Positions 1,374-10,896 of a stretch of DNA of 64,000 nucleotides are shown here, piece after piece. Position 1 is the first letter of the stretch. Each line of letters opens with the position of its first letter. The DNA is from Synergistaceae bacterium (GTDB lineage Bacteria > Synergistota > Synergistia > Synergistales > Aminobacteriaceae): the NCBI GenBank assembly GCA_017450125.1, contig JAFSWZ010000038.1, positions 1-64,000 on the forward strand, given 5' to 3'. A program made the translations under genes and the position numbers. Under the pieces are notes generated by a model. That model saw nothing but the letters and a program-made list of their open reading frames with translations, was not told the DNA's origin and did no database searches.

Positions 1374-2636
1374 CGCGAAACTTATTAGTTCTTCACGCGA
1401 GTTGCTCAGCTCTCCGTCAACTACAGCTTCAAGCAGTGCCGCTAATGTCTTCCCGATTGCCGGGCCCTTAAGCCCCAGTGCAATCATGTCATGACCGTTC
1501 ACGGCCAAATCCGTAATCTTCAGGCAGGCATCCTCGTCAATAACTTCCTGTATAAGCTCAAATGCACGTCTGAGCTGTGCCTCATTCTCGGGGAGCTCGA
1601 CATGTGCCGCCAGATCTGCCCTCTGAAGTTCGAGTAGCTTCATCACGTTGTCATACCCATGACGCGACAATAACCGTCTTGCTGTCTTTGTGTTTGCCGG
1701 AAAGTTTATGCAGTGCTCAGAGATCAGGAACTCCACCGTCCTCTTTGTGGCGTTGTCGAAACGCAGCCTGTTCATGATAACTTCTGCCGTTTCCGCGCCC
1801 GTCTTGTCGTGTCCGTAGAAATGCCCCTGCCCGTTCTCTCCCATGAAGAAGCATCTCGGCTTTGCGATGTCGTGAAACAGTGCCGCCCATCGAAGCTCCG
1901 GCGTGTTTTTGACCTCAACAACAACTTTCACCGTGTGTGCGTAAACGTCAAGATAGTGGTACGAGTTGTGCTGCTCGAAGCCTATCATCTCCCTGACCTC
2001 CGGGATTACTTCTCCCAGAACGTCCGCAAACTCAGTGAGCACGCTTTCAGCGTACGGTGCACAGAGAATCTTCGTCAGCTCGTCGCGTACACGTTCGGGC
2101 GCAACACCCGACAACGTCCCCGCCATCCCGTGAACTGCCTCTGCTGTCTCCTCCTCGACCCTGAAGCCGAAGAGTGCCGCAAACCTCAGCCCGCGAAGAA
2201 TCCTCAACGGGTCTTCCCCGAACCTCAGGCGCGCGTCAACAACTCCGCGAATGACTCTGTTCCTGATGTCCTCACGGCCTCCGAACGGGTCAATCATTTC
2301 CCGCGACGGATGCCAAGCTATTGCGTTGACGGTGAAATCTCTGCGCGACAGGTCATCAGTCAGCGTTTTCCCTCCGTATCTGTACGTAGTAACCTCGATG
2401 CCGTGATCCTCTCCGTCAACGATGACCTTCACCGTCCCGTGCTGCTCGCCTGAACCTATGGGGCGGCAGTCAAGCACCCTCTCGACCTCCTCAACACTCG
2501 CGCTTGTTGCAATGTCGAAGTCTGCAGGCAGAAGGTTCATCAGGAAGCTGCGCACGCATCCTCCGACGAGAAAAGCATCATACCCGGCGGAATTGAGGCT
2601 CATAATAACTTTCAGTGCAGCATCATAACCATTCAT
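1353..2636 (-). CDS. cca: CCA tRNA nucleotidyltransferase (class II, HD domain)
   Basis: Adds or repairs the 3' CCA of tRNAs. The 427-residue protein has the nucleotidyltransferase signature: GGCVRS at residues 25-30 and the metal-binding DFD at 39-41. An arm-like motif follows, then an HD phosphohydrolase-type domain with HDIAKP at about residue 255 and a second conserved HD further on. The open frame extends 35 codons further upstream but would then run into the tRNA-Leu gene. The ATG at 2636 gives the usual family N-terminus, although only a weak GGCGG-type ribosome site precedes it. It lies next to tRNA-Leu, which does not encode its CCA end. A poly(A) polymerase is the alternative for this family; the single-copy context and HD domain favour CCA addition. 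Confidence 0.9.
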   Translation of the reverse strand: MNGYDAALKVIMSLNSAGYDAFLVGGCVRSFLMNLLPADFDIATSASVEEVERVLDCRPIGSGEQHGTVKVIVDGEDHGIEVTTYRYGGKTLTDDLSRRDFTVNAIAWHPSREMIDPFGGREDIRNRVIRGVVDARLRFGEDPLRILRGLRFAALFGFRVEEETAEAVHGMAGTLSGVAPERVRDELTKILCAPYAESVLTEFADVLGEVIPEVREMIGFEQHNSYHYLDVYAHTVKVVVEVKNTPELRWAALFHDIAKPRCFFMGENGQGHFYGHDKTGAETAEVIMNRLRFDNATKRTVEFLISEHCINFPANTKTARRLLSRHGYDNVMKLLELQRADLAAHVELPENEAQLRRAFELIQEVIDEDACLKITDLAVNGHDMIALGLKGPAIGKTLAALLEAVVDGELSNSREELISFAKKIPPA

Positions 2637-2657
2637 AATGCGGAAAATTTTACCGCC

Positions 2658-2686
2658 TTGACGATAAATAGCAAGTAGAGTAAAAT
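2658..2686 (+). promoter_or_regulatory. Sigma-70-type promoter of the tRNA cluster
   Basis: TTGACG (2658-2663), a 17-base spacer and TAAAAT (2681-2686); transcription should start near 2693, about 24 bases before tRNA-Leu. The same hexamer pair and spacing recur before the DUF1015 gene at 46186. Confidence 0.8.
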
Positions 2687-2716
2687 AGCCCTTGTGCTTA
2701 ATCACCAGCATTGAAC

Positions 2717-2800
2717 GCCGGGCTGGTGGAATGGTAGACACACGGGACTTAAAATCCCGAGGGCGTTAAGTCCGTGAGAGTTCGAGTCTCTCGTCCGGCA
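2717..2800 (+). tRNA. tRNA-Leu (anticodon TAA)
   Basis: An 84-base class II tRNA with a seven-pair acceptor stem (GCCGGGC with GTCCGGC), a variable arm and an anticodon loop reading TTAA. The discriminator A is followed by TTG, so the CCA tail is not encoded and must be added by the adjacent cca product. Confidence 0.95.
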
Positions 2801-2815
2801 TTGACAAGTGAACAT

Positions 2816-2892
2816 CGCGGGGTGGAGCAGTTTGGAAGCTCGTCGGGCTCATAACCCGAAGGTCAAAGGTTCAAATCCTTTCCCCGCCACCA
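2816..2892 (+). tRNA. Initiator tRNA-fMet (anticodon CAT)
   Basis: The 77-base gene closely matches bacterial initiator tRNA. Positions 1 and 72 are C and C, hence unpaired, and three consecutive G-C pairs close the anticodon stem (GGG...CCC). Both are initiator hallmarks. CCA is encoded at 2890-2892. Confidence 0.95.
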
Positions 2893-2896
2893 ACAA

Positions 2897-2973
2897 GGCG
2901 GTATAGCTCAGATGGCTAGAGCATGCGGTTCATACCCGCAGTGTCCCCGGTTCGATTCCAGGTGCCGCCACCA
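2897..2973 (+). tRNA. Elongator tRNA-Met (anticodon CAT)
   Basis: A 77-base gene with acceptor GGCGGTA pairing TGCCGCC, anticodon stem TGCGG/CCGCA, loop TTCATAC and encoded CCA. A CAT anticodon could also be the lysidine-modified tRNA-Ile2; the body looks more like elongator Met, but this is not certain. Confidence 0.88.
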
Positions 2974-3008
2974 AGACAGTAACGCGTACACAAGCGCACA
3001 TTATAGAA

Positions 3009-3033
3009 GCCCGCAAGCAGAGCGGGTTTTTTT
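3009..3033 (+). terminator. Terminator of the tRNA cluster
   Basis: CCCGC (3010-3014) pairs with GCGGG (3022-3026) and is followed by seven T. Confidence 0.8.
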
Positions 3034-3058
3034 GTACACATACCGAAAACTAACCCCG

Positions 3059-3067
3059 TGATATAAT
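3059..3067 (+). promoter_or_regulatory. Extended -10 promoter of the glycan operon
   Basis: TGATATAAT is a full TGnTATAAT extended -10 element, with no good -35 hexamer at 16-18 bases. It lies 43 bases before the first ATG of the operon, behind the tRNA terminator. Nothing like a regulator gene is nearby; variation here seems to be at the G tracts. Confidence 0.65.
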
Positions 3068-3109
3068 GCACCAAGTTTTCCCACAACATAGAAGGAGGAG
3101 TTGTTCATT

Positions 3110-4323
3110 ATGAGCAGAATTGCTATTGTCGGCGGCTGCGGGCATGTCGGTTTCCCGTTAGGGCTTGCGCTAGCCAGCGGTCTAAGTAATTCACACAAGG
3201 GGGGGGGGCAAACTACGTATCGCTGATCGACATCAACGCTGAAGTCATCAGCACCATCAACAGCGGCCGCGTACCCTTCCAAGAAGCCGGAGCAGAAAGC
3301 ATACTCCGCGAAGTCCTCGAGGCAAAGGCACTCCACGCCTCAGACGACATGAATCTTGTGCGTGATGCAGACGCAGTAATCTTCGTAACAGGCACTCCAG
3401 TCGACGAACACCTCAACCCAAGAATCCGCGACGTTCTCAGCGTCATAAAGCTCTATCTTCCGTACATGAATCCTGGACAGCTGATAATTCTCAGGAGCAC
3501 AATCTTTCCCGGAGTGTTCCGTGTTGTCGACAATATGCTGACTAAGTCGTTCGGCACTGCACCGAAGCTGGCGTTCTGCCCGGAGCGCATCGTTCAGGGC
3601 AAGGGTATCGAGGAGATCTTCACGCTCCCGCAGCTCGTCTCAGCGAACTCTCCTGAAGCCTTCCGCGAAGCATCAGAGCTCTTCTCGCACATAGCACCGA
3701 AGATTATTCCCCTCGAGCCCGAAGAAGCCGAGCTGGCCAAGCTCCTGACGAACTCGTGGCGTTACCTAGAGTTTGCCATAGCCAATCAGTTCTACATGAT
3801 GTGCGAGGAGAAGGGTTACAGCTTCTACAAGATTCTTGGTGCGCTGAGTGAGGATTACCCGAGAGCGAGGCATTTTGCGCGGGCTGGTTTCGCTGCCGGG
3901 CCGTGCCTGTTCAAGGACACGATGCAGCTGTCAGCCTTCTACAACAACAAGTTCTTTCTGGGTCAGGCAGGAATGCTCGTGAATGAGGGATTGCCTGATT
4001 TCGTGGTCAGCCAGCTCGAGAAGCGCATGGGAGGAAGCCTCAAGGACAAGAAGATAGCTATTCTGGGAATGGCCTTCAAGCCCAACAACGACGACACGCG
4101 CGAGAGCCTGTCGTTCAAGCTCAGGAAGAATCTCGAGTTCAGGATGGCGGAAGTCCTGATACATGACCCGTATCTAGACACAGCACCGCTCGGGGAAGTC
4201 CTTGCGCAGGCTGACGGAGTGATACTCGGCGTGCCTCATGACGAGTACTTGGGGCTGAAGATTGCTGTCCCGTTCGTGGACTGCTGGAACGTGTGGGCAA
4301 CGACATCCGGGAAGGAGGACTAA
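3110..4323 (+). CDS. Nucleotide-sugar 6-dehydrogenase (UDP-glucose/GDP-mannose dehydrogenase family), out of frame at a G10 tract
   Basis: Family members oxidise the C6 hydroxyl of an NDP-sugar to a uronic acid with two NAD+. Translation from ATG 3110, after the ribosome site GGAGGAG, gives a Rossmann start (IAIVGGCGHVGFP). It then enters a run of ten G (3199-3208) and stops at 3224-3226. The rest of the enzyme continues in the other frame to 4323: NAD-domain end, central helix, active-site AGPCLFKD (cysteine near 266 of the restored protein) and C-terminal domain with FKPNNDDTRES. With 8 or 11 G the frame would be open for about 404 residues. An internal ATG at 3349 would lack the NAD-binding motif. 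The best reading is a phase-variable gene in the OFF state; a plain frameshift mutation or a base-calling error is the alternative. It is first in the operon, so polarity on later genes is possible. Substrate unknown. Confidence 0.85.
3199..3208 (+). repeat. Homopolymer G10 tract (putative phase-variation switch, OFF)
   Basis: Ten consecutive G inside codons 30-33 of the nucleotide-sugar dehydrogenase. Ten or nine G lead to an early stop; eight or eleven restore the frame. Elsewhere in the window G or C runs reach only about six, apart from the second tract at 6580. Confidence 0.9.
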
Positions 4324-4326
4324 CTC

Positions 4327-5349
4327 ATGAAGATACTTGTTACAGGTTCGGCGGGGTTCATATGCGGCTACCTTGTTGAAGACCTGCTTGAACGCGGGCA
4401 CGAAGTCATAGGCATCGACAACTTCTCGAAGTACGGTCCTGTCCAGAAATCGTACGACAGCCATCCGCACTACAGGTTCATAGAGGGCGACGCGAAGGAC
4501 ACCGGCCTCATGAAGGAGATTGCCTGCGAGTGCGACCAGATTCTGGCGGCGGCGGCAATGATCGGCGGAATATCGTACTTCCACCACTACGCGTATGACC
4601 TCTTGGCCGAGAACGACAGGATAACCGCCTCAACGTTCGACGCGGCGATCTATGCCTACAATCACGGCCATCTGAAGCGCATTAACGTTCTGAGCTCGAG
4701 CATGGTCTACGAGTCGGCAGCAAAGTTCCCGAGCGCAGAGGGCGAAGAGAGGCAGTGTCCTCCGCCTCAGAGCACGTACGGCTTCCAGAAGCTGGCCTGC
4801 GAGTACTACGCTCAGGGAGCGCGCGAACAGTACGGCCTGCCCTGCACGGTGATTCGTCCGTTCAACTGCGTCGGCACTGGCGAGAGGCGGGCTTTGTGCG
4901 ACAGCGAGATACTCTCCGGGAACGTGAAGCTGGCCATGAGCCACGTAGTACCTGACCTTGTCCAGAAAGTCCTCAAGGGTCAGAACCCCCTGCACATTCT
5001 CGGCAAAGGGAATCAGGTGCGGCATTACACGTACGGCGGGGATTTGGCGCGCGGAATCAGGATGTGCATTGAGAGCGAGGCGGCCGTCAACGAGGACTTC
5101 AACCTCTCGACTCCCGTATCAACAACGGTGCTTGAGCTTGCCGAAGCGATATGGCGCAAGATTCACGGGGACAGCCTTCCGTTCGAGTATGTGTGCGACG
5201 ATCCCTTCAAGTATGACGTTCAGAAGCGCGTTCCGTCGACGGAGAAGGCAGAGAGGATTCTGGGTTTCAGGGCAGAAACGACGCTTGACGAGATTCTCGA
5301 CGAGGTAATTCCGTGGATAGCAGAGCAGGTCAGGCTCGGGGGAATATAA
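4327..5349 (+). CDS. NAD-dependent epimerase/dehydratase (extended SDR) for a nucleotide sugar
   Basis: A 340-residue extended short-chain dehydrogenase that would interconvert or dehydrate an NDP-sugar in the cytoplasm. Visible features are the N-terminal cofactor motif TGSAGFICG, an acidic residue after beta-2 (GIDNFS) favouring NAD, the active-site serines in SSSMVYE and the catalytic YGFQK (YxxxK). Three bases separate it from the dehydrogenase, so the pair probably acts in sequence, for example dehydrogenation then epimerisation to a uronic-acid donor. Its stop overlaps the next start (TAATG). The exact substrate cannot be told. Confidence 0.88.
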   Translation: MKILVTGSAGFICGYLVEDLLERGHEVIGIDNFSKYGPVQKSYDSHPHYRFIEGDAKDTGLMKEIACECDQILAAAAMIGGISYFHHYAYDLLAENDRITASTFDAAIYAYNHGHLKRINVLSSSMVYESAAKFPSAEGEERQCPPPQSTYGFQKLACEYYAQGAREQYGLPCTVIRPFNCVGTGERRALCDSEILSGNVKLAMSHVVPDLVQKVLKGQNPLHILGKGNQVRHYTYGGDLARGIRMCIESEAAVNEDFNLSTPVSTTVLELAEAIWRKIHGDSLPFEYVCDDPFKYDVQKRVPSTEKAERILGFRAETTLDEILDEVIPWIAEQVRLGGI

Positions 5350-6065
5350 TGCCGCTCCTCAGCATAGTTATTCCCGTCTACAACGAGGGCGGGAACATCA
5401 GGACGTGCCTTGAGGCCATAGAAAGCCGCGTTGAACGTGAGCACGAAATACTTATCGTTTACGACTTCGACGAGGACAACACACTTCCGGCAGTACGTGA
5501 GCTCATGCCGTCAATGCCCTGCATCCGCCTCGTCAGGAACAAGTACGGGCGCGGAGTCCTCAACGCGATAAAGACCGGCCTTGAGACTGCGGGCGGAAAG
5601 TATGTCGCTGTAACGATGGCAGACCTCTCTGACCCGCCGGAAGTCATGAACGCGATGATTGATGCGGCAGAACGTGAGGACGCTGACGTTGTGTGTGCGT
5701 CGCGCTACATGAAGGGAGGCCGTCAGGTCGGCGGGCCGTTCCTCAAGGGGCTGATGTCCCGGACTGCGGGGCTGACGCTTCACTGGTTCGCGGGGCTTCC
5801 GACGCATGACGCAACCAACAGCTTCAAGCTCTACAGGAAGAGTTATCTTGAGAGTGTTGCGGTTGAGAGCACGGGAGGCTTTGAGCTGGGGATTGAGCTC
5901 ACGGTGAAGGCATACCGTCAGGGCAGGAAAATCTGTGAAGTTCCCACAACTTGGACGGACAGGACAGCAGGAGAGTCGCACTTCAAGATCATGAAGTGGC
6001 TGCCCGGTTACCTGCGCTGGTACTTCTACGCGTTCGGCAGAAAGGAGCGCAGACATGGAGCTTGA
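5349..6065 (+). CDS. Family 2 glycosyltransferase (dolichol-phosphate-mannose-synthase-like)
   Basis: A GT-A-fold enzyme of 238 residues that transfers a sugar from an NDP donor, in this subgroup often to a polyprenyl phosphate on the inner membrane face. It begins with the typical LSIVIPVYNEGGN, has acidic DFDED and ADLSDPP stretches for metal and donor binding, and lacks C-terminal membrane helices, so it would be peripheral. The start at 5349 overlaps the previous stop by one base, indicating coupling; an upstream in-frame start would put 12 non-homologous residues in front. Its 3' end overlaps the methyltransferase start by 11 bases. A polyprenyl-linked sugar made here could feed the membrane protein at 6753. 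Confidence 0.87.
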   Translation: MPLLSIVIPVYNEGGNIRTCLEAIESRVEREHEILIVYDFDEDNTLPAVRELMPSMPCIRLVRNKYGRGVLNAIKTGLETAGGKYVAVTMADLSDPPEVMNAMIDAAEREDADVVCASRYMKGGRQVGGPFLKGLMSRTAGLTLHWFAGLPTHDATNSFKLYRKSYLESVAVESTGGFELGIELTVKAYRQGRKICEVPTTWTDRTAGESHFKIMKWLPGYLRWYFYAFGRKERRHGA

Positions 6066-6756
6066 CAGGCTGTACTCAAACCGTTTCGGCACTGCAGAAA
6101 TGAAGCGGCGAAACGATATGTGGCGTATTCTGTGCGCTGACTTCTTCGACAGGTACACCAAGCCTTCCGACGATGTCCTTGACGTTGCTGCAGGTTACTG
6201 CGACTTCATCAACAACATAGCTTCTCCAGCCTCAGGGCAGACGCGCGGCAGAAGGATAGCCGTTGACCTCAACCCTGACGTGAAAGACCACGCGGCAGAG
6301 TTTGTCGAGGTACACAACGTTCCTGCACAGAAGCTGGACTTCCTCGAGGATTCGAGCATCGACACGGTATTCGTGAGCAACTTCTTCGAGCACGTAAGGG
6401 ACAAGGAAGAGATCCTGAAGATTCTCGGCGAGGCTCTGCGTGTCCTTCGGGACGGCGGGAAGCTGATGATACTTCAGCCCAACATCAAGTACCTCACCGG
6501 CGAATACTGGGACTTCTTCGACCACTACACTCCACTGACGGAGAAAAGCATGTGCGAAGCTATAAGTATAATTACTGATGGGGGGGGGGGGCACTTCATT
6601 TTGAGGACTGTACTCGATAAGTTCATGCCCTACACAACGAAGAGCAGGCTTCCGCAGTACGGGTGGATGATAAAGCTGTACTGCCATTGTCCGCTGGCGT
6701 GGAAGGTGCTGGGGAAACAGATGTTTATTGTCGCTAGTAAGGAGGTTTGCCGATGA
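6055..6756 (+). CDS. SAM-dependent methyltransferase with an in-frame G12 tract
   Basis: A class I methyltransferase of 233 residues. Motif I (DVLDVAAGYCDF) is near residue 43, an acidic residue after beta-2 (AVDLNPD) follows, and there is a motif IV-like SNFFEHV. Its operon position suggests it methylates a sugar or glycan. Codons 176-179 (DGGGGH) are made entirely of a twelve-G run. With 11 G the frame stops after about four more codons; with 13 G it stops after about ten. The gene is thus ON as sequenced but should be prone to slippage, and truncation would remove the last quarter of the protein. Substrate not recognisable. Confidence 0.85.
   Translation: MELDRLYSNRFGTAEMKRRNDMWRILCADFFDRYTKPSDDVLDVAAGYCDFINNIASPASGQTRGRRIAVDLNPDVKDHAAEFVEVHNVPAQKLDFLEDSSIDTVFVSNFFEHVRDKEEILKILGEALRVLRDGGKLMILQPNIKYLTGEYWDFFDHYTPLTEKSMCEAISIITDGGGGHFILRTVLDKFMPYTTKSRLPQYGWMIKLYCHCPLAWKVLGKQMFIVASKEVCR
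6580..6591 (+). repeat. Homopolymer G12 tract (putative phase-variation switch, ON)
   Basis: Twelve consecutive G encode four glycines in the methyltransferase. Loss or gain of one base brings a stop within about ten codons in either direction. Confidence 0.9.
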
Positions 6757-8732
6757 CAGCAGAAAGAGAAGACAGCATGAAGCTGAGATTCCTGAAGATA
6801 TGCTATGTGGTTTCAGCGTTCGTAGCTTGTTTCAGGTTCAGGGTCAGCGCAGTATACAACACGGGCGCAGAGTACCATAGTCTGGATTACTCATGGCAGT
6901 ACGCCATTAACCGCCTGTTCCATGAGGGCAGATTATGGGGCAGTGATGTAATCTTTACGTACGGGCCGCTCGGCTTCATGTTTAATCCGATACCGTTCGG
7001 GAACAACGTTGTAATTGCACTGGCATTCTGGAGCGCAGTATCAGTTCTGGCCGCGCTTCTGTTCTCCTACGTAATGTTCTCTGAACGCATGAAGAAGGTA
7101 AACACGAGAGCCTCAAATATCCTGCTGTCGTTCATACTCTTTTACGCAGGGAATTACCTTATGGGGAGGCTGTACCCTGAATACGTGCTCTCATTCCTTA
7201 TACTCTGCCTTTTGTCCGTATGCTGGCACACCGGCGGACTGATCCCTTTCCTGACAGCTTCAGTGCTGAGTGTAGTATCTGCATTCATGAAGTTCAACTC
7301 GGGATCGATGGATTTCGTGAGCGTTGCTGTATTTGCGGTGCTTATGTCGATCCGCAAGGGCAGGGAAGGCCTGAAGTTCATTGCTGCGTTGTTTTTCGCG
7401 CCGGCAATGTTCTGCGTATGCTGTCTGCTGTACAATCCGAGCCTTCATGAACTTGCTATGTATGTCAGGGGAGCTTACGAGATTGCCGCAGGGTATATTT
7501 CAGCAATGAGCAGGCCTGTCATGCCCTCAGCACTTCTTGTGTGTATGCTGTCTGCATTTATCGGCTTCCTGATGCTTGTTATGGTGCTCCTGCTCAGAGC
7601 TTTTGCGTTTACGAGGACTCAGCAGTCCGTGCTCTACGCAATGGTTTTCGCTGTAAGCACGGCCGTCTGCTTCAAGCACGCCTTCGTTATGGGGCAGGGG
7701 CATTGCTTCATGTTTATGCCGTCGGTGTACGTGTACTGCTCTGTGTACGTTATGTTCATGGACAATGAGCTGGCCGCATCATCAGGGACGAAAAAATTTC
7801 TGTGTTACGCAGGAGCTGCGGTTTTCTTCTGCACTCTCGCTATATCTGCCGCAGGTCTCAATAAGTTTCACCTGCCCGATACTGTGAATTTCAGGAACAA
7901 GAAGGAACTTAACCGCCTTGTATCCAATATCCTGACTAACCCGCTCGCTGAATTTCACGGCAATATAGCTTCTCTTGGAAGCGCGGACAAAGTTTACGAC
8001 ATGAGGAATCTCAAACTGCCTGAGTGGGTGATAAGCACTGTTTCATCAGACAGCGCGGGATTTTATCCTACAGAGCTCTCGCTTGTACACGATCTGCCGG
8101 GCTTTGTGAACATGCCTGTCATTCAGGCTTACAGCGCATATACTTCATGGCTTGACATCCAGAATGCGGGCTTTTTTGCGGATGATGACCGTGCCCCCAA
8201 GTTCATAATATTGCGCGGCTTAGCTTTCGACAACAGGTTCGCAGTTATGGATTCTCCTCTTGCCTGTCTTGAAATGCTGAGGAATTATTCGATACGGCGG
8301 AAGGAGGACTCTTATTTTCTGCTGGAACGCAGGCCTCAGCCTAAGAATTTCACCCGCAGAGAAATAGCTTCGCGGGAAGTCAGCCGTGACTCGTTCATCG
8401 ATATTCCCAAGACGGCACAGCACTGCCTGATGAAACTTGAGATGCCCCTCAGCCTTATGGGCAAGGCCGCAAAATTGTTCTGGAAGATTCCTGAAGTCAG
8501 GATGGAAGCAGAGCTTGAAGGAGGATTGCGTATCACCAAACGGGTTATCCCTGAGGTACTGGCGAATGATACCCTGATAAGCTCTATAGTTTCCGATGAT
8601 GAAACGTTCGGTGAGATTATGGACGGACGGACGGACATAAACCGTGTGAAACGCATACATTTTTCCGGGAGCGGCCTGAAATTTTTCGCGCCTGTTATTA
8701 AGCTGAAGTTTTTGGAGCTGCTACAGGAATAA
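6753..8732 (+). CDS. Large polytopic membrane protein, possibly a GT-C-type glycosyltransferase
   Basis: A 659-residue protein with about ten to twelve hydrophobic helices over roughly the first 360 residues, then a soluble C-terminal part. An extracytoplasmic first loop holds acidic residues and a FTYGPLGFM stretch, a layout like GT-C enzymes that use polyprenyl-phosphate sugars. I do not recognise the family firmly. The ATG at 6753 is chosen over an upstream TTG because AAGGAGG lies six bases before it and it overlaps the methyltransferase stop as ATGA. It looks somewhat more AT-rich than its neighbours, compatible with transfer. Likely role: last membrane step of the glycan operon (transfer or polymerisation). 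A flippase or plain uncharacterised membrane protein are alternatives. Confidence 0.6.
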   Translation: MTAEREDSMKLRFLKICYVVSAFVACFRFRVSAVYNTGAEYHSLDYSWQYAINRLFHEGRLWGSDVIFTYGPLGFMFNPIPFGNNVVIALAFWSAVSVLAALLFSYVMFSERMKKVNTRASNILLSFILFYAGNYLMGRLYPEYVLSFLILCLLSVCWHTGGLIPFLTASVLSVVSAFMKFNSGSMDFVSVAVFAVLMSIRKGREGLKFIAALFFAPAMFCVCCLLYNPSLHELAMYVRGAYEIAAGYISAMSRPVMPSALLVCMLSAFIGFLMLVMVLLLRAFAFTRTQQSVLYAMVFAVSTAVCFKHAFVMGQGHCFMFMPSVYVYCSVYVMFMDNELAASSGTKKFLCYAGAAVFFCTLAISAAGLNKFHLPDTVNFRNKKELNRLVSNILTNPLAEFHGNIASLGSADKVYDMRNLKLPEWVISTVSSDSAGFYPTELSLVHDLPGFVNMPVIQAYSAYTSWLDIQNAGFFADDDRAPKFIILRGLAFDNRFAVMDSPLACLEMLRNYSIRRKEDSYFLLERRPQPKNFTRREIASREVSRDSFIDIPKTAQHCLMKLEMPLSLMGKAAKLFWKIPEVRMEAELEGGLRITKRVIPEVLANDTLISSIVSDDETFGEIMDGRTDINRVKRIHFSGSGLKFFAPVIKLKFLELLQE

Positions 8733-8740
8733 GCAGACAA

Positions 8741-8770
8741 TACCCCCGCCAACCACGACGGGGGACAATT
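8741..8770. terminator. Hairpin between convergent genes
   Basis: CCCCCG (8743-8748) pairs with CGGGGG (8759-8764) over a 10-base loop. T runs are short on both strands, so it is a modest terminator that may act in both directions. Confidence 0.6.
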
Positions 8771-8775
8771 TTCTC

Positions 8776-10896
8776 CTACGCACTCAGCGACAAAAGATTA
8801 CGATAAATCGGGTACGGCCAGATCTCCGCACTCGTAACGAGTTCCGCCGCATCACACTTCGCCCTTATGCTGTCCATCAGCGGAATAATCTCCGCAAGCA
8901 GGAAACCGCTTCTCTCTCGCGCATCCATCCCCGCAAGCCTGCCCTTCAGCTCGAACAGTGCATTAGCGTCCTTGATGAGCGCGTTCTTCGCCCGGCCAAG
9001 ACCTCCGACGTAGTCCCGCCACGGTGTCATGTCCCCAAAGTCCACGTTCTCAAAGTACAGCATCGAGTTACGCTCAAGTGTGAGCTGCTTCGACAGTGCC
9101 GGAAGTACTCCCTCCCAAAGCATGTCGTACAGCACCGCCGCTTCAACCTCAAGCCCCGTCGCAAAACTCTCCATGCGGATATCTCTCAGGTTCTCGAGCT
9201 CGTGCGCGCGGTAAACGCCGAGCTTCTCGAGCATCTCCTTGTTCTCGGGCTTTAGCAGAAGGTCTATCCTGCCCGGCATGTCCTCAGCCTCGACAAGCCC
9301 CCTTCTGCGTGCTTCGTCCTGCCACTCCTTAGAGTACGCGTCTCCCTCGAAGAGAACTGCGCTGCCCATCCTGAAGGCCTCGCGTGCCGCATCAAGTGCC
9401 GCGTCTATCGGGTCAGTGCCTCCTGCGCTGCGGGTCTCAATCATTCCCGTGAGCTGCTCGATTCCCCACGCCCACAGAGACGCAAACATCGTTACGGGAA
9501 GGGCTATGCTCTGCGACGAGCCGGGCGCGCGGAACTCGAATTTGTCGCCCGTGAACGCAAGCGGTGATGTCCTGTTCCTGTCGCTGTCGAACGGGATGAT
9601 GTCAGGAAGTTTCGCCAAGCCGAGATCCATCGTGCCGTGTTCGGGAAGCGACACGTCCGAGCTGTCGAGCCTGCGGATTAAGTCAGTGAGTGCAGAGCCA
9701 AGATACACGCTGATGATTGACGGAGGAGCTTCGTGCCCGCCCAGACGGAACAGGTTGCCGTAAGTCGCTATCGAGGCCTGAAGCAGGCTGTGGAACTTCG
9801 ACACACCAAGCACTAGCGCAGACAGGAACGTCAAGAATATCACGTTGCGCCTGTGCGAGTTCGAGGGCTTCAGGAGGTTGCGGCCTTCGCTGTCCATCAG
9901 AGACATGTTCGTGTGCTTGCCGCTTCCGTTCATCCCCGCAAAAGGCTTCTCGTGGAACAGCAGGCGCAGTTCATGCGTGCGGGCGAGCTTCCTCATCGTC
10001 TCCATCAGAATCTGGTTCTGGTCGCAGGCTCTGTTTGCGTCGCTGTAGAGGTGCGCGAACTCGAACTGGCAGCGTGCCACCTCGTTGTGCCGCGCGAACA
10101 CACTCACTCCCAGCCGTGCGAGGTCTCGTTCAACGTCCTCCATGTAGCTCAGCACTCGGCGGTGAATCGCTCCCATGTAGTGATGGTCGAGCTTCTGGTC
10201 TTTGGCGGGCTGTGCACCGATTAACGTCCTTCCGCAGAATCTTATGTCGGGTCTCAGCTGTGCTCTTGGCCTGTCCAGAAGGAAATACTCCTGCTCCGCA
10301 CCTACGGTCATCTTCACGCTCTTCACTCCGCGCTGGCCGAGTGTCTTCAAGAGGCGCAACGCCCTTCCTTCAACGGCATCAAGCGCGCGCAGAAGAGGAG
10401 TCTTCAGGTCTAACGGTGTGCCGTCGAACGACAGGAACACTGACGGAATGCACAGCGTCCCTCCTTTCGGCGAAGGAACGATGAACGCCGGGCTTGAGAT
10501 GTCCCACGCAGAATATCCCCGTGCCTCGAACGTCGAACGCGTCCCGGCACTCGGGAAACTCGATGCGTCGGGCTCTCCCTGTGCGAGGTTCTTGCCCCTG
10601 AAGACCTCCATAGGGTTGCCGTCCCCATCACTCATCGTGAAGCCCTGATGCTTCTCGGCGGTCAGTTCGCTCATCGGCTGGAACCAGTGCGCCCAGTGCG
10701 TCGCTCCCTTCGACACTGCCCAGTCTTTCATGGCTGTTGCTACGATGTCTGCGGCTTCGGGCGATAACCTCTGGCGGCCTTCCATTGCGGCTATGACCTG
10801 CTCGTAGATGTCGGGGTTGAGCTTCTGTTTCATCACGCGCTTATCAAACAGCAGCGAGCCAAAAATTTCGTGTAAAGACGGATATTCTTTATTCAT
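8776..10896 (-). CDS. glnN: Glutamine synthetase type III
   Basis: ATP-dependent synthesis of glutamine from glutamate and ammonia. At 706 residues it matches the large type III enzymes rather than the roughly 450-residue type I. It shows the GSIII N-terminal segment, the VGAEQEYFL metal-site region, NGSGKHTNMSL in the ATP/glutamate site and the EFRAPGSSQS segment. A Gram-negative-style GSI adenylylation loop is not apparent. AAGAAGG lies nine bases before the ATG. It is monocistronic, flanked by a convergent terminator downstream and a 153-base gap upstream. With gdhA in the same window it covers both directions of ammonia-glutamate traffic. Confidence 0.95.
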   Translation of the reverse strand: MNKEYPSLHEIFGSLLFDKRVMKQKLNPDIYEQVIAAMEGRQRLSPEAADIVATAMKDWAVSKGATHWAHWFQPMSELTAEKHQGFTMSDGDGNPMEVFRGKNLAQGEPDASSFPSAGTRSTFEARGYSAWDISSPAFIVPSPKGGTLCIPSVFLSFDGTPLDLKTPLLRALDAVEGRALRLLKTLGQRGVKSVKMTVGAEQEYFLLDRPRAQLRPDIRFCGRTLIGAQPAKDQKLDHHYMGAIHRRVLSYMEDVERDLARLGVSVFARHNEVARCQFEFAHLYSDANRACDQNQILMETMRKLARTHELRLLFHEKPFAGMNGSGKHTNMSLMDSEGRNLLKPSNSHRRNVIFLTFLSALVLGVSKFHSLLQASIATYGNLFRLGGHEAPPSIISVYLGSALTDLIRRLDSSDVSLPEHGTMDLGLAKLPDIIPFDSDRNRTSPLAFTGDKFEFRAPGSSQSIALPVTMFASLWAWGIEQLTGMIETRSAGGTDPIDAALDAAREAFRMGSAVLFEGDAYSKEWQDEARRRGLVEAEDMPGRIDLLLKPENKEMLEKLGVYRAHELENLRDIRMESFATGLEVEAAVLYDMLWEGVLPALSKQLTLERNSMLYFENVDFGDMTPWRDYVGGLGRAKNALIKDANALFELKGRLAGMDARERSGFLLAEIIPLMDSIRAKCDAAELVTSAEIWPYPIYRNLLSLSA

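Follow-up and report, generated by a model that had tools for sequence, protein, structure and literature searches.

Two Poly-G Tracts in a Sugar-Modification Operon of a Synergistaceae Bacterium Belong to a Genome-Wide Set with a Directional Flanking Motif

Introduction

Slippage at long runs of guanine (G) is an established route of gene switching in other bacteria, and phase variation of this poly-G type is usually attributed to the repeat itself and to nothing else. Here, we analyze a stretch of 64,000 nucleotides (positions 1 to 64,000 of contig JAFSWZ010000038.1, hereafter the window) from an uncultured member of the Synergistaceae, in which a five-gene operon on the forward strand (3110-8732) contains two poly-G tracts: one of 10 G (3199..3208, forward strand) within a nucleotide-sugar dehydrogenase gene and one of 12 G (6580..6591, forward strand) within an S-adenosylmethionine (SAM) methyltransferase gene. 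Our reading, to which we assign a probability of about 0.88, is that both tracts are contingency switches that operate by slippage, that they are part of a genome-wide set, and that many tracts of this set are accompanied by a motif that is directional and is maintained at the level of the DNA. The observations that carry it are the tracts themselves, their reading frames, the classes of gene in which they lie, the differences of their length between species and the motif with its controls. Poly-G contingency tracts are known from elsewhere; what is new is a genus-wide set of them with a directional flanking motif.

Results

The Window Tracts and Their Counterparts in Related Genomes

A preliminary description of the window had reported runs of 10 and 12 G in two operon genes, one of them out of frame and the other in frame, with the remaining G or C runs of the 64 kb reaching about six. 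Both runs are confirmed at the coordinates above and the next longest run is one of 6. As assembled, the dehydrogenase gene begins with the ATG at 3110 and extends for 38 codons to a TGA stop at 3224-3226, and is thus OFF; its frame is restored at 8, 11 or 14 G. Comparison with homologues places this tract in the loop that follows the first Rossmann helix. The methyltransferase frame is open at 9, 12 or 15 G, so that at the assembled length of 12 the gene is ON with an open frame of 233 amino acids. The same description had deduced four states of the operon. Two tracts, one OFF and one ON, are indeed present, but the dehydrogenase would act first and its OFF state would make methylation moot; hence there are probably three phenotypes rather than four.

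The preliminary description had also proposed that the same genes with G runs of other lengths be sought in relatives, and at both sites the length proved to differ between species. The dehydrogenase site, with 10 G in the window, has 12, 9 and 12 G in three relatives in which the gene is open (399-400 amino acids), whereas in four homologues (loci L034, L035, L040 and L054) it is tract-free and the protein is of 387-392 amino acids; the dehydrogenase is therefore some 10 residues longer with a tract than without one. The methyltransferase site has 12 G in the window, 8 in L029, which meets an early stop at codon 23 from an assumed start, and 11 in L032, which is open. An orthologue of the methyltransferase in a relative from red deer (L031:4160-4860) has no G run and its frame is broken at the same site. 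In three loci of Gastranaerophilales (L036, L037 and L046) and in one recorded as Fusobacterium sp. CAG:439 (L045), a run of 10 G lies downstream of an orthologous epimerase gene; the flanks of these four runs are alike and do not carry the motif described below. The same type of operon may thus be phase-variable in an unrelated phylum.

Tract Numbers in the Genome and the Genus

The genome to which the window belongs (G000; G-, L- and C-numbers designate genomes, loci and contigs, respectively) has 36 tracts of 10-14 G, 22 on the forward and 14 on the reverse strand, together with one run of 8 and none of 9, the last two values being deduced from counts of overlapping hits (162 for 8 G and 89 for 10 G). 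The distribution of run lengths is bimodal: in the 318.5 kb taken around the tracts, runs of 6 number 38 and runs of 10-14 number 36, with nothing at 7-9. Extrapolation of the decay of run length gives an expectation of 0.6 tracts in the genome, against the 36 observed. Most of these tracts are situated where a change of length alters a reading frame and two where it alters the spacing of a promoter. Automatic calls gave 13 ON and 23 OFF among the 36, although such calls are of little reliability where a tract is intergenic or N-terminal, placed the start of the window dehydrogenase wrongly and can err at other tracts, for example that of L026.

Such tracts are present in 42 of the 43 genomes of the genus, our own included, and their number ranges from 0 to 58 per genome. 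The nearest named relatives are Synergistaceae or Synergistales genomes from goat rumen, red deer and reindeer. The locus had been considered notable; its tracts are real, but they are not special within their own genome, being 2 of 36, and most genomes of the genus are alike in this respect. Some congeners with genomes of 1.6-2.0 Mb (G015, G044 and G048-G051) have 0-5 tracts, possibly through a loss of tracts or of glycan genes.

A Directional Motif Adjacent to the Tracts

The genus-specific motif, approximately TACGTAAWWTTACGNAY, lies on the 5' side of the G run and ends at the first G or a few bases from it. Expectation maximisation on 112 5' flanks from the genus yielded TACGTAATTTTACGTA, with half sites near -18 and -7; the strongest positions are those of CGTA. 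Within the 25-base 5' flanks of our genome, TACGTA occurs 16 times where 0.06 are expected, and in the 30-base 5' flanks it is found at 17 of 35 tracts, as against a mean of 1.7 and a maximum of 5 in dinucleotide shuffles. By comparison, it precedes 2 of 1137 runs of four G, 0 of 206 of five and 0 of 38 of six, and it occurs in the 3' flank of a single tract out of 35, which is the first tract of the window (TACGTA at 3214-3219). At the tracts of other genomes of the genus the count is 14 of 75 (shuffle mean 1.5, maximum 6), as against about 3/523, 1/126 and 1/23 before shorter runs. Taken together, G060 and G062, a set that partly overlaps the discovery set (3 of its 44 tracts, in L111 and L114, were already among the flanks used to find the motif), have TACGTA on the 5' side of 10 of 44 tracts (shuffle mean 1.0, maximum 4) and on the 3' side of 3, with short-run controls of 3/344, 0/84 and 0/19. 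When the eight codons before 25 tracts of our genome, whose frames were set by hand, were resampled synonymously, TACGTA was obtained at a mean of 0.9 and a maximum of 6 tracts, compared with the 11 of 25 observed. Outside the genus, in tract sets that include low-complexity and artefactual runs, TACGTA was found at 0 of 22 tracts, one of which has CGTAA or TTACG; any motif word was found at 0 of 23 tracts of two other genera and in 1 of 7 further rows, there on the 3' side.

A looser set of words (the motif words were chosen on our own genome) occurs 5' of the G run in 98 and 3' of it in 33 of 144 genus tracts (flanks unique by 24 bases, with one low-complexity run of 18 G, in L283, included); random 24-mers contain such a word in 7-12% of cases. 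The direction of the motif is seen best at 12 tracts located in genes that, by codon score, read the C strand. A motif word is 5' of the G run in eight of these and 3' in one, and TRCGYA is 5' in five and 3' in none; one of the 12 (L177) is of the promoter type, without which the counts for TRCGYA are 4 of 11 and 0, and another (L003:4311) is upstream of a likely gene start. The motif thus follows the G strand and is conserved at the DNA level. If the motif acted through the mRNA or the ribosome, there would be no reason to expect this adherence to the G strand. Elsewhere in the genome no excess of the motif was found: 38 sites have three or fewer mismatches, 11 of them beside tracts, as against 28 for a reversed control pattern. 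The 5' flanks fold slightly better than their shuffles, by a mean difference of 0.19 kcal/mol (z -3.75) and have a palindrome score of z 2.7; we set aside a DNA hairpin as the basis of the motif, the folding excess being too small to decide.

The flavin adenine dinucleotide (FAD) oxidoreductase gene of L026 allows orthologues to be compared with and without a tract. The tract is present in four genomes, ours included, and absent in nine, and the loops are nearly equal in length; therefore, a tract can arise at its site with no large insertion. In the homologous bases a loose motif word occurs in 4 of 4 genes with the tract versus 3 of 9 without it, and TRCGYA in 3 of 4 versus 1 of 9 (one-sided Fisher, calculated by hand, about 0.05 for each; one of the nine, L237, is incomplete). 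Among 16 orthologous pairs the identity on the 5' side is 0.70 for the ten bases nearest the tract, 0.78 for the ten that adjoin these and 0.60-0.82 beyond; on the 3' side the ten nearest bases are lower, at 0.59 as against 0.66-0.76 beyond. Hypermutable flanks were rejected, since on the 5' side these pairs show no clear drop in identity close to the tract.

The Genes of the Window Operon

The first gene of the operon (3110..4323, forward strand, as are all five) encodes the nucleotide-sugar (UDP-sugar) dehydrogenase that is OFF at 10 G; PF03721, PF00984, PF03720 and TIGR03026 match the piece downstream of the tract. It is followed by an NAD-dependent sugar epimerase/dehydratase (4327..5349; PF01370, PF16363) and a family 2 glycosyltransferase, GT2 (5349..6065; PF00535), which bears a weak likeness to polyprenyl-phosphate sugar synthases and scores far below the curated cut-offs of NF007986 and NF041391. 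The SAM methyltransferase gene, ON at 12 G (6055..6756; PF08241), overlaps by its stop the start of the next gene (ATGA, 6753-6756), and hence, when the methyltransferase is OFF, the level of the product of the latter may be reduced as well. This last gene (6753..8732) encodes a membrane protein, possibly a GT-C glycosyltransferase of ArnT-like fold. It had no match in Pfam and NCBIfam scans or in a PDB sequence search; its AlphaFold model (pLDDT 68) gave as top Foldseek match, a weak one, ArnT (5f15; E 1.0e-3, TM 0.32), followed by the GT-C glycosyltransferases EmbB and AftA. An Rfam scan of 2600-9000 gave three tRNAs only, all upstream of the operon.

The set resembles the transfer of sugars from a lipid carrier by ArnC and ArnT, in that a GT2, a possible GT-C membrane protein and a UDP-sugar dehydrogenase and epimerase are combined in one operon; it differs in that the NCBIfam models of ArnC and ArnA fall far below cut-off and the match of the fold is weak. 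The operon probably serves the synthesis of a lipid-linked sugar and its transfer to a surface glycan, with methylation as an option. The earlier proposal of a coherent sugar-modification set with two probably phase-variable tracts is supported.

Other Genes and Promoters That Carry Tracts

A Pfam scan that covered 31 of the 36 tract genes of our genome placed 11 of the 31 above cut-off in clear glycan-synthesis families: nucleoside diphosphate (NDP)-sugar dehydrogenase, GT2, GT92, EpsG, capsule synthesis, epimerase, pyruvyl transferase and GT4. Further tract genes encode FkbM, ketoacyl synthase III, short-chain dehydrogenases, asparagine synthase, a condensation domain, two FG-GAP giants, HsdS, two radical-SAM-like proteins (PF04055 below cut-off) and a pair of pilin-like proteins; in one of the pilin-like genes (L003:4311) the tract precedes the likely start. 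Genes for surface structures appear to be over-represented among those scanned. The tract genes of L022 and L025 had zero Pfam matches. The FG-GAP repeat genes, both longer than 4.3 kb (L019:4162-9000 and L020:2-4457), carry tracts of 14 and 11 G near their 5' ends. In L011:3659-8623 four tracts occur within 3 kb, in a region with three tandem GT2 paralogues (one of them scanned) whose tracts are near the 3' ends, and the same locus holds a tract gene with a below-cut-off match to Wzy_C.

The tract in hsdS (L014:3347-4880) is a run of 13 C (G000:C25:127343-127355) with PF01420 on both sides, that is, between two target-recognition domains, and the gene is preceded by an open reading frame (L014, 1337-3301) that is methylase-like as judged by sequence only; L014 is thus probably a phase-variable type I methyltransferase. 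Two tracts of our genome (L004:4738-4748 and L024:4369-4380, C strand) occupy the spacer of a promoter of the form TTGACN-Cn-TATAAT, with spacers of 16-21, and the same architecture, likewise on the C strand, is found in relatives at L112, L152, L160, L177, L261 and L278. Tracts in such C-strand spacers are probably transcriptional switches.

Discussion

How the Tracts Might Operate

During replication, a G run would gain or lose bases by slipped-strand mispairing and the change in length would shift the downstream part of the gene into frame or out of it. In the window operon, a lipid-linked sugar would be made by the dehydrogenase, the epimerase and the GT2 and added to a surface glycan by the GT-C-like membrane enzyme, and the methyltransferase tract would switch an optional methylation. 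Genome-wide, each of the 36 tracts would act on its own, and the genes switched in this way would include many surface genes and one HsdS. From the observations above we infer that slippage takes place in living cells, what its phenotype is and that the motif influences the birth, upkeep or mutability of tracts.

We rejected a loss of mismatch repair as the cause of the tracts: MutS and MutL are present. The MutS1 model is matched in all 43 genomes of the genus (37 over cut-off) and MutL in 39 of 43, with both copies of our own genome over cut-off. Two candidate agents of the motif were also rejected. Reverse transcriptase, of a diversity-generating retroelement (DGR) or of another system, is present in 21 of 43 genomes, ours included, unrelated to the number of tracts, and is lacking in G060, G062 and G054 in spite of their 33-42 tracts. 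Y1 transposase (REP/RAYT, IS200-type) is absent from our genome and present in 15 of 43 in the genus, likewise without relation to tract number.

Comparison with Known Systems

For Campylobacter jejuni NCTC11168, 29 poly-G/C contingency loci of 7 or more are recorded (PMC4965091), and in a study of Campylobacter phasomes (PMC6321876) the word "motif" appears 0 times and "flanking" once, in reference to open reading frames. As in Campylobacter, long G runs lie here in glycan and surface genes, are many per genome and vary in length between strains or species. Unlike that system, ours belongs to another phylum, its tracts are of 10-14, runs of 7-9 being all but lacking, a conserved motif flanks them, and MutS and MutL are both present. 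Campylobacter is not known to have MutS and MutL. In Neisseria, a poly-G switch operates in the porA promoter (PMC3639595) and a homopolymer switches the hsdS of NgoAV (PMC9577141). Our promoter-spacer homopolymers (L004 and L024) and the homopolymer that splits hsdS (L014, NgoAV-like) resemble these, whereas the flanking motif, the taxon and the many glycan genes do not. Mismatch repair is present in Neisseria. Among the open-licence matches listed, as judged by title and the start of the abstract, there was none on phase variation in Synergistetes or Synergistaceae, and none on a conserved motif beside poly-G tracts.

Alternative Explanations

The tracts could be subject to ordinary poly-G phase variation, with the motif a mere by-product of AT-rich codons in loops and of stop codons close by. 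This would accord with the composition of the flanks in our genome (62% AT versus 42-46% at short runs), with the 2.0 versus 1.4 stop words per 30 nucleotides on the 3' side and with the one third of genus tracts that are motif-free; the dinucleotide shuffles, the synonymous resampling, the genes that read C and the other genera nevertheless all favour a specific DNA signal, and the by-product is disfavoured as unlikely. It is quite improbable, too, that the motif represents the minus-10-like element of a C-strand promoter, from which an antisense start would induce slippage or regulate the gene. Although 8 of 147 tracts are situated in C-strand consensus-like promoter spacers (shuffle mean 0.6, maximum 4), as against 1 of 147 in those of the G strand (mean 0.7, maximum 3), and at the 135 other tracts minus-10-like words number 16 on that side, where 7.2 are expected (sd 2.3), and 9 on the opposite side, where 7.1 are, the exact TATAAT occurs in 0 of these 135 (1.0 expected), the remaining tracts fail a two-box promoter search, and the strongest positions of the motif, CGTA, differ from those of a minus-10 element.

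That genes acquired each tract with its flank as a small mobile cassette is suggested by the length of the dehydrogenase (399-400 residues with the tract, 387-392 without), but we consider it very unlikely: in the FAD oxidoreductase the tract replaces a loop of near-equal length and the motif overlaps conserved codons, Y1 transposase is absent here and reverse transcriptase from the tract-rich G060, G062 and G054, the genome has no surplus of motif-like sites apart from the tracts, and no clean insertion of tract plus flank between strains was seen in the loci compared. Artefacts of sequencing or assembly are barely credible as the source of the long runs. A genome of the family (G006) does have a run of about 50 bases at the start of a contig and one tract of our own is at a contig end (C23:1-13), yet 35 of our 36 are internal to contigs, the majority have a reading frame before and after them, several sites are common to separately assembled species, and the motif is shared.

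Several observations weigh against slippage-driven switches marked by a DNA-level motif. Even a loose motif word is lacking at 46 of 144 genus tracts, and its share varies, with 29 of 35 in our genome, 13 of 27 in a set of one per genome, 10 of 19 in G043, 14 of 19 in G046, 17 of 22 in G060 and 15 of 22 in G062; the strict TACGTA is present at 1 of 20 tracts of G043. Both window tracts have degenerate copies of the motif in their 5' flanks (TAAGTAATTCACACAA, 3183..3198, and ATAAGTATAATTACTGAT, 6562..6579, both on the forward strand), and the association of tract and motif in the FAD oxidoreductase orthologues is marginal. The differences in length were observed between species, not within one population, and short-read assembly can misjudge a run of 10-14 G. 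With MutS and MutL in the genome, slippage is not necessarily fast. The search for an agent, which covered reverse transcriptase and Y1 transposase, yielded no reader of the motif. The fold match of the membrane protein is weak, and the product of the operon is one that we infer.

What the Motif May Mean

The motif could act by the binding of a protein or by easy bending or melting of the DNA, or it could derive from a minus-10 element. Tentatively, and with some doubt, we can envisage a dedicated system in which a protein binds the near-palindrome TACGTAAWWTTACG 5' of the run on the G strand and promotes the birth, upkeep or slippage of tracts; the half sites of TACGTAAWWTTACG, about one helical turn apart, would be contacted by this putative protein. 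The sharing of one motif by many runs hints that something in the cell tends them. With up to 58 tracts per genome, repair genes present and a shared directional motif, these bacteria offer a testable role for the sequence adjacent to a repeat, and perhaps for a protein that reads it. If such a dedicated protein exists, switching would be fast and tract-specific in spite of the mismatch repair genes, and phase variation would be a targeted rather than a passive process.

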